A program made the position numbers and the translations under genes. Below the pieces are notes generated by a model. It saw only the letters and a program-made list of their open reading frames with translations. It searched no databases and was not told the DNA's origin. Below, in pieces: positions 6,243-51,308 of a stretch of DNA of 64,000 bases (within the stretch, counting starts at the first letter, position 1; each line of letters begins with the position of its first letter). Source of the DNA: Bosea beijingensis (GTDB lineage: Bacteria; Pseudomonadota; Alphaproteobacteria; Rhizobiales; Beijerinckiaceae). The DNA is taken from assembly GCF_030758975.1 (NCBI RefSeq), contig NZ_CP132359.1:2388781-2452780 (forward strand). Reading direction: 5' to 3'.

Positions 6243-6272
6243 GCGGCTGCTTGAGGGCACCCGGGGCTCCGC

Positions 6273-6420
6273 CGTCATTCCGGGGCTTCGCGATAAGCGA
6301 AGAGCCCGGAACCCCGGAACCGATGCGGCCACTCGAACAGGCGTCGCCGTTCTGCCTTTTCAATCAGATTCAGCGGTTCGGGATTCCGGCATCACGGCTT
6401 CGCCATGCTCTGGAATGACG
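6273..6420. repeat. Degenerate inverted-repeat element (third copy of the GIY-YIG-associated family)
   Basis: The left arm begins CGTCATTCCGGGGCTTCGCG and runs to about 6320. The right arm (about 6375-6420) read on the other strand begins CGTCATTCCAGAGCATGGCG. The arms show the same order as the better-preserved copies at 21827-21959 and 49709-50112: a GTCATTCC end, an internal small hairpin, then CCCGGAACC. The interior has no ORF. It lies between the small membrane protein gene and the terminator at 6447. Confidence 0.7.
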
Positions 6421-6446
6421 ATCGCTGCCTGGGATAATCGCCCAAG

Positions 6447-21826: not shown

Positions 21827-21959
21827 TTGTCATTCCGGGGCTTCGCGGAGCGAAGAACCCGGAACCCACGACCGGGTAAAACATCCCAAGCTAGGCAGCA
21901 ATCCGTTCACCCAGTCGTGGGTTCCGGGTTCGCGCCTGCGGCGCGCCCCGGAATGACAA
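21827..21959. mobile_element. MITE-like 133-bp inverted-repeat element without ORF
   Basis: Two 51-bp arms in inverted orientation (21827-21877 and 21909-21959) are separated by 31 bases. Each arm reads TTGTCATTCCGGGGC, then a small hairpin of variable sequence (TTCGCggAGCGAA in one, a GCGCC/GGCGC stem in the other), then CCCGGAACCCACGACYGGGT. These are the same arms that enclose the GIY-YIG gene at 49709-50112, so this copy looks like an internally deleted, non-autonomous form. It lies between corA (minus) and the symporter gene. Confidence 0.85.
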
Positions 21960-48270: not shown

Positions 48271-49707
48271 ATGAGCGCGATAGCCTTTCCGGTGCCGGAT
48301 GCCGGCATTCTCGCCCGTCGCGAATCGATCATCGCCGGCCTCGCGCGGCTGGTCCCGCCGCAGGCGCTGATCACCAGCGACGACGAGCGCCGTCCCTATG
48401 AGACCGATGCGCTGACCGCCTATCGCCGGATGCCGCTCGCCGTCGTCCTGCCTTCGACGACGCGGGAGGTCGCGGCCGTGCTGCGCTATTGCCGGGAGGA
48501 GGGCGTGCCGGTCGTGCCGCGCGGCTCCGGCACTTCGCTTGCCGGCGGCGCGATCCCGCAGGAGGACGCGGTGGTCATCGGCGTCTCCAAGATGAACCGC
48601 ATCCTCGAGATCGACTATGCCAACCGGGTAGCACGGGTCGAGGCCGGCGTGACCAATCTCGCGGTCACCGGCGCGGTCTCGGCCGAGGGCTTCTTCTACG
48701 CGCCGGACCCGTCCTCGCAGCTCGCCTGCTCGATCGGCGGCAATATCGGCATGAATTCGGGCGGCGCCCATTGCCTGAAATACGGCGTCACCACCAACAA
48801 CGTCCTCGGCGTGACCATGGTGATGCTCGACGGCTCGATCGTTGAAATTGGCGGCGCCCATCTCGATTCGCCGGGCTACGACCTGCTCGGCCTGATCAAC
48901 GGCTCGGAAGGCCAGCTCGGCATCATCACCGAGGCGACTGTTCGCATCCTGCGCACGGCCGAGGGCGCGCGCCCGGTGCTGTTCGGCTTCCCGACCAGCG
49001 AGCAGGCGGGCTCGGCCGTCGCCGCCATCATCGGCGCCGGCATCATCCCGGTCGCGATGGAGTTCATGGACAAGCCGGCGATCGAGATCTGCGAGGCCTT
49101 CGCCAAGGCCGGCTATCCGATGGATGTCGAGGCGCTGCTGATCATCGAGGTCGAGGGTTCCGACGACGAGATGGACGCCCAGCTCGCCCGCATCGTCGCG
49201 ATCGCCCGGGAGCACGGCGTCTCGACCGTCAAGGAATCGAAATCGGCGATGGAGGCGGCGGCGATCTGGAAGGGCCGCAAGTCGGCCTTCGGTGCCACCG
49301 GCCGCATTGCCGACTACATCTGCATGGACGGCACGATCCCGACCGGGCAATTGCCCTATGTGCTCCGGCGCATGGGCGAGATCGTGAAGGGCTATGGGCT
49401 TCGCGTCGCCAATGTCTTCCATGCCGGCGACGGCAATCTCCACCCGCTGATTCTCTACAACTGCAATGATCCGATCGAGGCGCAGAAGGCCGAGGATGCC
49501 GGCATGGACATCCTCAAGCTCTGCGTCGAGGTCGGTGGCTGCCTGACCGGCGAGCACGGCGTCGGGATCGAGAAGCGCGACCTGATGACCTTCCAGTTCA
49601 ACCCGGAAGACCTCGCCCAGCAGATGCGGGTCAGGGCAGTGTTCGACGAGCGCTGGCTGCTCAACCCGGCGAAGGTGTTCCCGCTGGAAGGCAGGGTGGC
49701 GGCCTAA
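48271..49707 (+). CDS. glcD: Glycolate oxidase subunit GlcD (FAD-linked)
   Basis: A 478-residue flavin subunit of glycolate oxidase, which oxidises glycolate to glyoxylate and passes electrons to the quinone pool with GlcE and GlcF. The PCMH domain has PRGSGTSLAGGAIP, ARVEAGVTN and SIGGNIGMNSGGAHC. The C-terminal FAD-oxidase domain has VFHAGDGNLHPLIL (His/Asn metal/substrate residues) and LTGEHGVGIEKRDLM. The stop (49705-49707) is two bases from the start of the inverted-repeat GIY-YIG element. Confidence 0.96.
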   Translation: MSAIAFPVPDAGILARRESIIAGLARLVPPQALITSDDERRPYETDALTAYRRMPLAVVLPSTTREVAAVLRYCREEGVPVVPRGSGTSLAGGAIPQEDAVVIGVSKMNRILEIDYANRVARVEAGVTNLAVTGAVSAEGFFYAPDPSSQLACSIGGNIGMNSGGAHCLKYGVTTNNVLGVTMVMLDGSIVEIGGAHLDSPGYDLLGLINGSEGQLGIITEATVRILRTAEGARPVLFGFPTSEQAGSAVAAIIGAGIIPVAMEFMDKPAIEICEAFAKAGYPMDVEALLIIEVEGSDDEMDAQLARIVAIAREHGVSTVKESKSAMEAAAIWKGRKSAFGATGRIADYICMDGTIPTGQLPYVLRRMGEIVKGYGLRVANVFHAGDGNLHPLILYNCNDPIEAQKAEDAGMDILKLCVEVGGCLTGEHGVGIEKRDLMTFQFNPEDLAQQMRVRAVFDERWLLNPAKVFPLEGRVAA

Positions 49708-49708
49708 G

Positions 49709-50112
49709 CTTTGTCATTCCGGGGCTCGCGCAGCGAGAACCCGGAACCCACGACTGGGTGAGAGAGATGCCGTATTTCGTCTACCTCCTCGCCCGAAAGA
49801 AGGACGGTACGCTCTATCTGGGCGTCACCAATGATCTCGCGAGACGCGTTCATGAACACAAGGCGAAGCAGAGGATCGGCTTTGCATCCCGATACGATGT
49901 CGATCGCCTCGTCTGGTATGAAGAGTTCGAATGGGTTCACGATGCCATCGACCGGGAAAAGGTGCTGAAGAAGTGGCGTCGCGCGTGGAAGATCAATTTG
50001 ATCGAGGACATGAATCCCGAATGGGCGGATCTCTATGAAGGGTTGGCATAAGAGGATTTACCCAGTCGTGGGTTCCGGGTTCTTCGCTGCGCGAAGCCCC
50101 GGAATGACAAAG
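49709..50112. mobile_element. Compact GIY-YIG element: nuclease gene between inverted ~50-bp arms
   Basis: The left arm (49711-49759, TTGTCATTCCGGGGC, a TCGCG/CGCGA-like hairpin, then CCCGGAACCCACGACTGGGT) and the right arm (50060-50110) are inverted near-identical copies. Pairing can be extended outward to CTTTGTC at 49709 and 50112. The enclosed GIY-YIG gene starts 7 bases from the left arm and ends 8 bases from the right. No target-site duplication is visible. It fills the glcD-glcE gap. Related ORF-less arm pairs are at 21827 and 6273. Confidence 0.85.
49767..50051 (+). CDS. GIY-YIG domain nuclease (YhbQ/UvrC-N-like)
   Basis: A 94-residue single-domain GIY-YIG protein. The catalytic motif is YFVYLLARKKDGTLYLGVTN (FVY...YLG in place of GIY-YIG), with the Arg in DLARRVHEH and the Glu in DREKVLKKW, followed by RRAWKINLIEDMNPEWADLY. 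Standalone proteins of this type recur in multiple copies in Rhizobiales genomes. GAGAGA precedes ATG 49767. An alternative GTG at 49758 lies inside the left arm. The protein is a plausible enzyme for mobility of the element around it. Confidence 0.9.
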   Translation: MPYFVYLLARKKDGTLYLGVTNDLARRVHEHKAKQRIGFASRYDVDRLVWYEEFEWVHDAIDREKVLKKWRRAWKINLIEDMNPEWADLYEGLA

Positions 50113-50120
50113 GGTGAAGC

Positions 50121-51308
50121 ATGATCATCCATACTCCCACCACCGAGGCGCAGGCCTGCGCCGTCGTGAAATCGGTCGTCGACAGCGCTACCCCGCTTAC
50201 CTTGCGTGGCGGCGGCACGCGCTCTGGCCTGGGGCGCCCCGCACAGGCGGCGAGCACGCTCTCCAGCGCGGGCTTGACCGGCATCACCCTCTACGAACCC
50301 GCCGAGATGGTCATCGCCGCCCGCGCCGGCACGCCGCTCGCGCTGGTGCGACAGACGCTCACTGAGCGCGGCCAGATGCTGCCCTTCGAGCCGATGGACC
50401 ACCGCGCCCTCTATGGCAGCGAGGGCGAGCCGACGATCGGCGCCGTCGCCGCCTGCAACATCTCCGGCCCGCGCCGGATCAACGCCGGCGCCGCCCGCGA
50501 TTCCCTGATCGGCGTCAGATTGGTCAATGGCCGTGGCGAGATGATCAAGTCCGGCGGGCGCGTGATGAAGAACGTCACCGGGCTCGACCTGGTAAAGCTC
50601 CTCAGCGGCAGCCATGGCACGCTCGGCTTCCTCACCGAGGTGACCTTCCGCGTGCTGCCGCGACCGGAGCGCATCGTCACGCTGCAATGGAGCGGCCTGT
50701 CGGACAGCGACGGCGTTGCGCTCTTGTGCAAGGCTCTGGGCTCGCCCTTCGAGCCGATGGCGGCGGCGCATCTTCCGGCCGGGATCGCCGGCGAAGAAGC
50801 CCGGACCGTGCTCCGGCTGGAGAATTTCTCGGACTCGATCGAGTATCGCGCCAGTGAGCTCGCCTTGCTGCTCGGCGAATACGGCGTGCCGGAGCGCCTG
50901 GAAGGAACGGCACCTACCGAGCTCTGGCGCGATATCCGCGACGCCGCCTTCTTCGCCGGAAGCGATGAGGCGGTCTGGCGGCTCTCGCTCGCCCCGACCA
51001 ACGGCCCGAAGGCCGCCGCCGCGATCGCGCGCATGGTCCCGGGCGGGCGCTGCTTCTACGACTGGGGCGGCGGGCTGGTCTGGCTCGCGGTTCCCGCCGA
51101 TGGCGATGCCGGCGCCGCGGCGATCCGCGCCGCGCTGAGGCCGCTCGGCGGCCATGCCACGCTGGTCCGCGCGCCCGACGCGATCCGCGCCGCCGTCGAC
51201 GTGTTCCAGCCCCTGGCCGAGCCGCTGATGCGTGTCACGGCCGGTATCAAGAAGAGTTTCGATCCCGCCGGCATTTTCGAGCCCGGCCGGATCTATGCGG
51301 GGATCTGA
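50121..51308 (+). CDS. glcE: Glycolate oxidase subunit GlcE (FAD-binding)
   Basis: A 395-residue second flavin-type subunit of glycolate oxidase. It has PCMH features LRGGGTRSGLGRPA, PAEMVIAARAGTPLA and GAVAACNISGPRRINAG. The last ~150 residues are the GlcE-specific tail (ending FDPAGIFEPGRIYAGI). The ATG is 8-10 bases after the end of the element; AAAGGGTG at the element's boundary may serve as its RBS. It overlaps the next gene by one base. Confidence 0.94.
   Translation: MIIHTPTTEAQACAVVKSVVDSATPLTLRGGGTRSGLGRPAQAASTLSSAGLTGITLYEPAEMVIAARAGTPLALVRQTLTERGQMLPFEPMDHRALYGSEGEPTIGAVAACNISGPRRINAGAARDSLIGVRLVNGRGEMIKSGGRVMKNVTGLDLVKLLSGSHGTLGFLTEVTFRVLPRPERIVTLQWSGLSDSDGVALLCKALGSPFEPMAAAHLPAGIAGEEARTVLRLENFSDSIEYRASELALLLGEYGVPERLEGTAPTELWRDIRDAAFFAGSDEAVWRLSLAPTNGPKAAAAIARMVPGGRCFYDWGGGLVWLAVPADGDAGAAAIRAALRPLGGHATLVRAPDAIRAAVDVFQPLAEPLMRVTAGIKKSFDPAGIFEPGRIYAGI

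Follow-up and report, generated by a model that had tools for sequence, protein, structure and literature searches.

Repetitive extragenic palindromes (REPs) are among the commonest bacterial repeats, and for those with a GTAG tag a partner enzyme, RAYT, is known. In the parts of the literature used here, the RAYT (TnpA-REP) gene is flanked by two inverted REPs (PMC2817692), and gene-less inverted REP pairs, or REPINs, are dispersed (PMC3116915). A second class, the CGTC-tagged REPs, was surveyed in 2013 (Di Nocera et al, PMC3733652); the sections of the survey drawn on here place it mostly in alphaproteobacteria, and in other phyla too, describe it as having no associated transposase gene and propose that the enzyme may have been lost or replaced. 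Here we describe a 400-bp unit in a 64,000-nucleotide stretch of Bosea beijingensis DNA (NZ_CP132359.1, positions 2,388,781 to 2,452,780; the window) in which a small GIY-YIG nuclease gene lies between two inverted repeats of this kind. We consider it probable that the gene encodes a nuclease dedicated to one REP family, in a partnership like that of RAYT and REPs but with an unrelated enzyme, and the data suggest that this GIY-YIG family is the missing partner of the CGTC-tagged class. A conserved nuclease family between CGTC REPs makes the missing-transposase question testable with one 94-residue protein.

The unit (49711-50110) separates a glcD-like gene ending at 49707 from a glcE-like gene starting at 50121. 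It consists of a 49-bp left arm (49711..49759, + strand), 7 bases, a GIY-YIG gene of 94 codons plus stop (49767..50051, + strand), 8 bases and a 51-bp inverted right arm of the same family (50060..50110, - strand), an arrangement that the first-pass annotation of this DNA had described and that the sequence confirms. The gene was assigned from its open reading frame, a Pfam match and the alignment of homologues. GIY-YIG was the sole Pfam match of the 94-aa protein (E = 6e-17), so that the Transposase_17 domain (HUH tyrosine transposase) of RAYT enzymes is lacking, and none of the NCBIfam models matched. Residues Y6, Y17, G19, R27, H31, E64 and N83 are conserved or nearly so among homologues, and all of these except Y17 are unchanged across 21 homologues; together with the Pfam domain, these residues, which we take to include the catalytic ones, place the protein in the GIY-YIG family. 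Structure prediction gave a bare GIY-YIG domain with a mean predicted local distance difference test score of 91.

The left arm reads TTGTCATTCCGGGGC-TCGCGCAGCGA-GAACCCGGAACCCACGACTGGGT and the right arm is its inverted counterpart. From the outside inward each arm has a TTGTC tag, a stem TTCCGGG/CCCGGAA that encloses an inner hairpin of varying sequence, and an inner box CCCACGACTGGGT. We searched the 5.56-Mb genome with the pattern GTCATTCCGGGGC..CCCGGAAYCC and found 87 exact copies, the left arm being one of them and the right arm being recovered by the same search, whereas the pattern read backwards had none. The copies form 32 pairs (64 copies) and 23 singles. All 32 exact pairs are inverted with their tags outside; start-to-start spacing is 88-101 bp in 30 of them, 181 bp in one and 357 bp in the one that contains the GIY-YIG gene. 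Thirty pairs are thus gene-less units of about 130 bp, and among 15 units inspected in full, 14 were gene-less and 133-140 bp long and the other was the GIY-YIG unit. A search for arm copies with and without the gene had been proposed in the first-pass annotation, which would have been contradicted by arms that occur only once in the genome and never with GIY-YIG genes; the 87 copies, all of whose pairs have tags outside, also rule out chance or a private repeat as the origin of the arms. We considered whether the gene-less pairs could be deletion derivatives of the gene cassette and provisionally rejected this: although the inner boxes match, inspection by eye revealed no evident gene sequence in the spacers of 25-30 bp.

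The inner hairpin varies in sequence and keeps its pairing, as had been claimed from the two arms. This was scored on the 39-nt hairpins of those copies that lie within loci L004-L033 and the window, 29 in all: of the 145 cells representing their five inner pairs, 144 were standard pairs, compared with a mean of 91 and a maximum of 105 in 1000 shuffles. The arms resemble the CGTC-tagged REPs as described in the text consulted of PMC3733652, where the class is defined by an unpaired CGTC (or TGTC/CCTC) tag, a palindrome beginning with AT, a CCA-like tail and many copies. The arms (TGTCATTCC..GGAACCCA) have the TGTC variant of the tag, a stem beginning with AT, a CCA-like tail, 87 copies and, like that class, a predominance of tags-outside pairs (32/32). 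They differ in having a paired nuclease gene and in the palindrome itself: a stem of 8-9 bp and a loop of 4-5 bp are typical in the same source, with other loop lengths in the Bradyrhizobium CGTC-1 and two CGTC-3 families, whereas here a 7-bp outer stem carries a 6-bp inner hairpin in a longer loop. Because stem and loop lengths differ, we regard the arms as a long-loop relative and not as typical CGTC REPs. A similar consensus, with a CCCCGGAATGA end, belongs to the Br-REP2 repeat family of Bradyrhizobium (PMC5082802), to which the text examined links no nuclease gene. The word GIY has no occurrence in the CGTC REP survey, and in the open-licence PubMed Central literature (preprints were outside its scope) we found no paper linking GIY-YIG genes to REPs; one Moraxella paper contains both words once each.

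We then asked whether homologous genes elsewhere are flanked by such palindromes. Homologues were detected in 79 of 101 genomes searched, and we used 114 genes from 112 loci of the order, best first among the matches listed. With palindrome patterns defined after inspection of the flanks, tagged palindromes lay within 250 bp on both sides of 72/114 genes and on at least one side of 91/114. Reversed flanks gave 4/114 and 8/114, and distal windows 300-550 bp away gave 0/100 and 18/100. A score for inverted repeats between the left and right flanks exceeded the 99th percentile of shuffles in 84/113 genes; flanks paired at random between loci passed in 78/562, since related loci have repeats in common. 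When loci were grouped by their outer flanks, 44 were independent and 27 of these had two-sided tags. In other families of the class, sampled as 29 listed loci plus 20 hand-picked from unlisted ones, 19/49 genes had two-sided and 35/49 at least one-sided palindromes, and among the best 80 of 499 loci in a public genome collection the counts were 51/80 and 73/80. The palindrome-bearing loci of the collection include Flavobacterium, Kordia, Allomuricauda and Maribellus, with Bacteroidota among the phyla, as well as Atribacterota, Planctomycetota and Thiobacillus; the 80 loci also contain some from Bosea whose genomes are already in the order-level set (L296, L353). We conclude that the association of these genes, which we call type 1, with CGTC/TGTC-tagged inverted palindromes is almost certainly specific.

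A second GIY-YIG subfamily, type 2, whose genes share about 40% identity with the focal one, was originally chosen as a negative control (one of 20 control regions, L241, had no gene match and was not counted). None of the 19 had two-sided CGTC palindromes and three had one-sided ones, although six still passed the inverted-repeat score owing to another palindrome. This palindrome, CCTTCG..CTCAGG, adjoins or overlaps the gene end in 15/21 type-2 loci (13/19 plus two further loci; L222-L240, L376, L383), compared with 2/163 type-1 genes and 0/33 distal windows. With a stricter motif it was present at 8/19 type-2 loci on either side. Several type-2 proteins end in residues encoded by this repeat. 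As the palindrome class sorts by GIY-YIG subfamily, a general preference of REPs for small genes is disfavoured.

The same result bears on the reading, which we hold to be quite unlikely, that the protein is a structure-selective host repair or quality-control nuclease that trims hairpins, the adjoining REPs being incidental or serving expression. The predicted structure is compatible with such a role, as it is with a REP-dedicated enzyme, the top fold matches being a UPF0213 protein and then, at E ~0.02, the Slx1-Slx4 branched-DNA nucleases. Slx1 works with Slx4. The enzyme here shares the fold of UPF0213 and Slx1 proteins and, unlike them, is stand-alone with flanking REPs. The ratio of nonsynonymous to synonymous substitution (dN/dS) was 0.09-0.11 in five gene clades, rough values obtained from sequences of the commonest length in each clade with dS near 1; the protein is therefore maintained by purifying selection, as a REP-dedicated nuclease and a host nuclease alike would be. 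Caulobacter also has three small genes of the GIY-YIG domain, one with an SOS box, according to the portion consulted of PMC1839093. Incidental REPs would, however, ignore subfamily, yet types 1 and 2 take different palindrome classes. Moreover, each GIY-YIG gene of the present genome has its own repeat family: the three genes go with three different dispersed families of 87, 16 and 15 exact copies, with controls at 0.

Arm type also follows gene clade. On a tree of the genes, the six arm types, likewise defined after inspection of the flanks, required 6 changes where 5 is the least possible, compared with a mean of 38.5 and a minimum of 34 for 200 shuffles of the labels; the test covers the 61/114 rows that could be labelled (53/114 were unlabelled) and a tree of 96 columns that is poorly resolved. 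Part of this match reflects common descent at shared loci, the glcD-glcE junction holding both the A and the B genes and one other locus the D genes. Two observations carry more weight: clades that sit at different loci each have a tagged type of their own, and in the present genome three genes go with three families.

The likeness to REP elements and their RAYT nucleases that the first-pass annotation had drawn is thus borne out by the dispersal of the arms, by the tagged palindromes that surround homologues across several phyla and at numerous unrelated loci, and by an arm type that tracks clade. As in the REPtrons and REPINs of the sources cited above, in the parts used, an enzyme gene in single copy per type has an inverted REP from a dispersed family on either side, enzymes that share a genome have separate REP families, and gene-less inverted pairs are dispersed. 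The differences are the enzyme, GIY-YIG and not an HUH tyrosine transposase, and the tag, CGTC/TGTC and not GTAG. We think it quite probable that the enzyme acts on its REP hairpins. Its substrate would be the tagged hairpin, in extruded or single-stranded form, which it would recognize and nick or cut; activity in trans could then spread, move or maintain the gene-less pairs, with the gene itself remaining at a fixed site, like RAYT genes with GTAG-tagged REPs. That the enzyme mobilizes its REPs is a more doubtful proposition, which we put at slightly short of even. If the enzyme does cut and move REPs, short repeats would be spread by a new kind of chemistry. More tentatively still, small stand-alone GIY-YIG nucleases may in general be dedicated to palindromes: type 1 would move or maintain CGTC-tagged REPs in many phyla and type 2 would do the same for CCTTCG..CTCAGG palindromes, so that REPs would spread by means of a nuclease fold that is not known to act as a transposase.

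If gene and repeats are partners, repeat number may be compared with gene presence. In 61 genomes of the genus, A boxes had a median of 10 with an A gene and 2.5 without (p = 0.0013), and B boxes 16.5 with a B gene and 0 without (p = 0.00014); after subtraction of the gene's own arms the values were p = 0.014 (A) and 0.0003 (B), and crossed tests against the non-matching gene gave p = 0.08 and 0.11, all of these p values ignoring the relatedness of the genomes. The higher counts with the matching gene favour a dedicated partnership; that the tests ignore relatedness is one of several points that count against it. A boxes are retained in 26 of 46 genus genomes without an A gene, and G015 has 32 of them with no GIY-YIG match at all. 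A model in which the number of copies depends strictly on the gene is therefore rejected: as A boxes persist without the A gene, standing copies do not require it. The gene itself does not multiply. Among the homologues of the order, 20/114 are without a tagged palindrome by the classing used. These include members of a conserved type-1 locus cluster of 13 genes (L097, L100, L101 and others), which has no tagged palindromes in 9/13 and one-sided ones in 4/13; this cluster is possibly a domesticated copy.

We next considered the glcD-glcE junction. The upstream gene (48271..49707, + strand), called from its open reading frame and found as the same neighbour at genus loci, is presumably the glycolate oxidase subunit GlcD-like gene; the downstream GlcE-like gene (50121..51308, + strand) has a counterpart that overlaps the glcD stop by 4 bp, with nothing between, in 17 of 30 genus genomes (L143-L172). 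Of the remaining 13 genomes, eight have the A unit, four have a B gene between two pairs and one has a degenerate single repeat. Hence not all relatives carry the gene at this locus, a case that would have spoken against the first-pass annotation; gene and arms were present in 12/30. In B-type loci L048-L055 the gene likewise lies between two complete inverted pairs and not within one pair. Gene and arms occur once per genome and are at this junction in 23 genus genomes (A-type 15, B-type 8). The proposal that gene and arms form a self-contained mobile unit is therefore unsupported, because the gene keeps to a fixed site and multiplication is seen for the gene-less pair, which measures about 90-150 bp across types.

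These observations would also fit homing: a free-standing endonuclease would cut the glcD-glcE junction where it is empty, and recombination would copy the gene in, with arms that either belong to the cassette or arrived later as neighbours. A- and B-type genes share the one junction (23/24 rows of that locus cluster), the fixed site has an exact empty allele in the 17 genomes with the 4-bp overlap, and the A, B and empty states change 10 times on a glcE tree of 29 genomes, about as often as when the labels are shuffled (mean 10.8), so that the cassette comes and goes. GIY-YIG homing endonucleases have the same catalytic domain and are likewise present or absent at a fixed site. The gene here, by contrast, is without intron or intein, has a dispersed flanking repeat and encodes a single domain of 94 aa. 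Against homing, deep splits among A genes follow the glcE tree by inspection. Homing also leaves unexplained why 27 unrelated loci, and loci in other phyla, have two-sided tagged palindromes, why arm type tracks gene clade and why gene-less pairs are dispersed, and we judge it unlikely.

Comparison of empty sites had been proposed as a way to find exact boundaries and any target duplication. It yielded the empty state, a 4-bp gene overlap at glcD-glcE; elsewhere the intergenic sequence is too diverged, which puts single-base insertion boundaries out of reach. No general target duplication was found in 107 pairs, in which the longest shared flank word had a mean of 4.32 compared with 4.13. Direct repeats of 7-8 bp flank 6/107 pairs, a slight excess over the ~2% obtained with mismatched flank pairs. 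They include L255 (G000:C1:1354367-1354586), where the spacer of an A pair (the 181-bp spacing) holds a nested E-family pair that is flanked by the 8-bp direct repeat GCGGCAAA. Such repeats, and inverted-repeat gene-less pairs of about 130 bp, are what would be seen if these were ordinary DDE-type miniature inverted-repeat transposable elements mobilized by some unseen transposase, the GIY-YIG gene being a passenger. We hold this to be very improbable: a target duplication of fixed length is lacking, no transposase gene lies between such arms among the loci examined, and the pairing of gene and palindrome spans phyla. For a partnership of the RAYT-REP type the lack of target duplication is as expected, the RAYT enzymes being relatives of IS200/IS605.

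Two further pairs in the window were compared with related genomes, and they show gain and loss of repeat pairs from one species to another. At 6272-6421 there is an inverted pair of B-like type; this slot is without a pair in G015 and has B-like pairs in G029 and G017 and other types in G021, G020 and G060. The gene-less inverted pair at 21827..21959 (133 bp, unstranded), recognized from its sequence as the same REP family as the arms, is absent in G021 and G051 and is replaced by a pair of a different type in G055.
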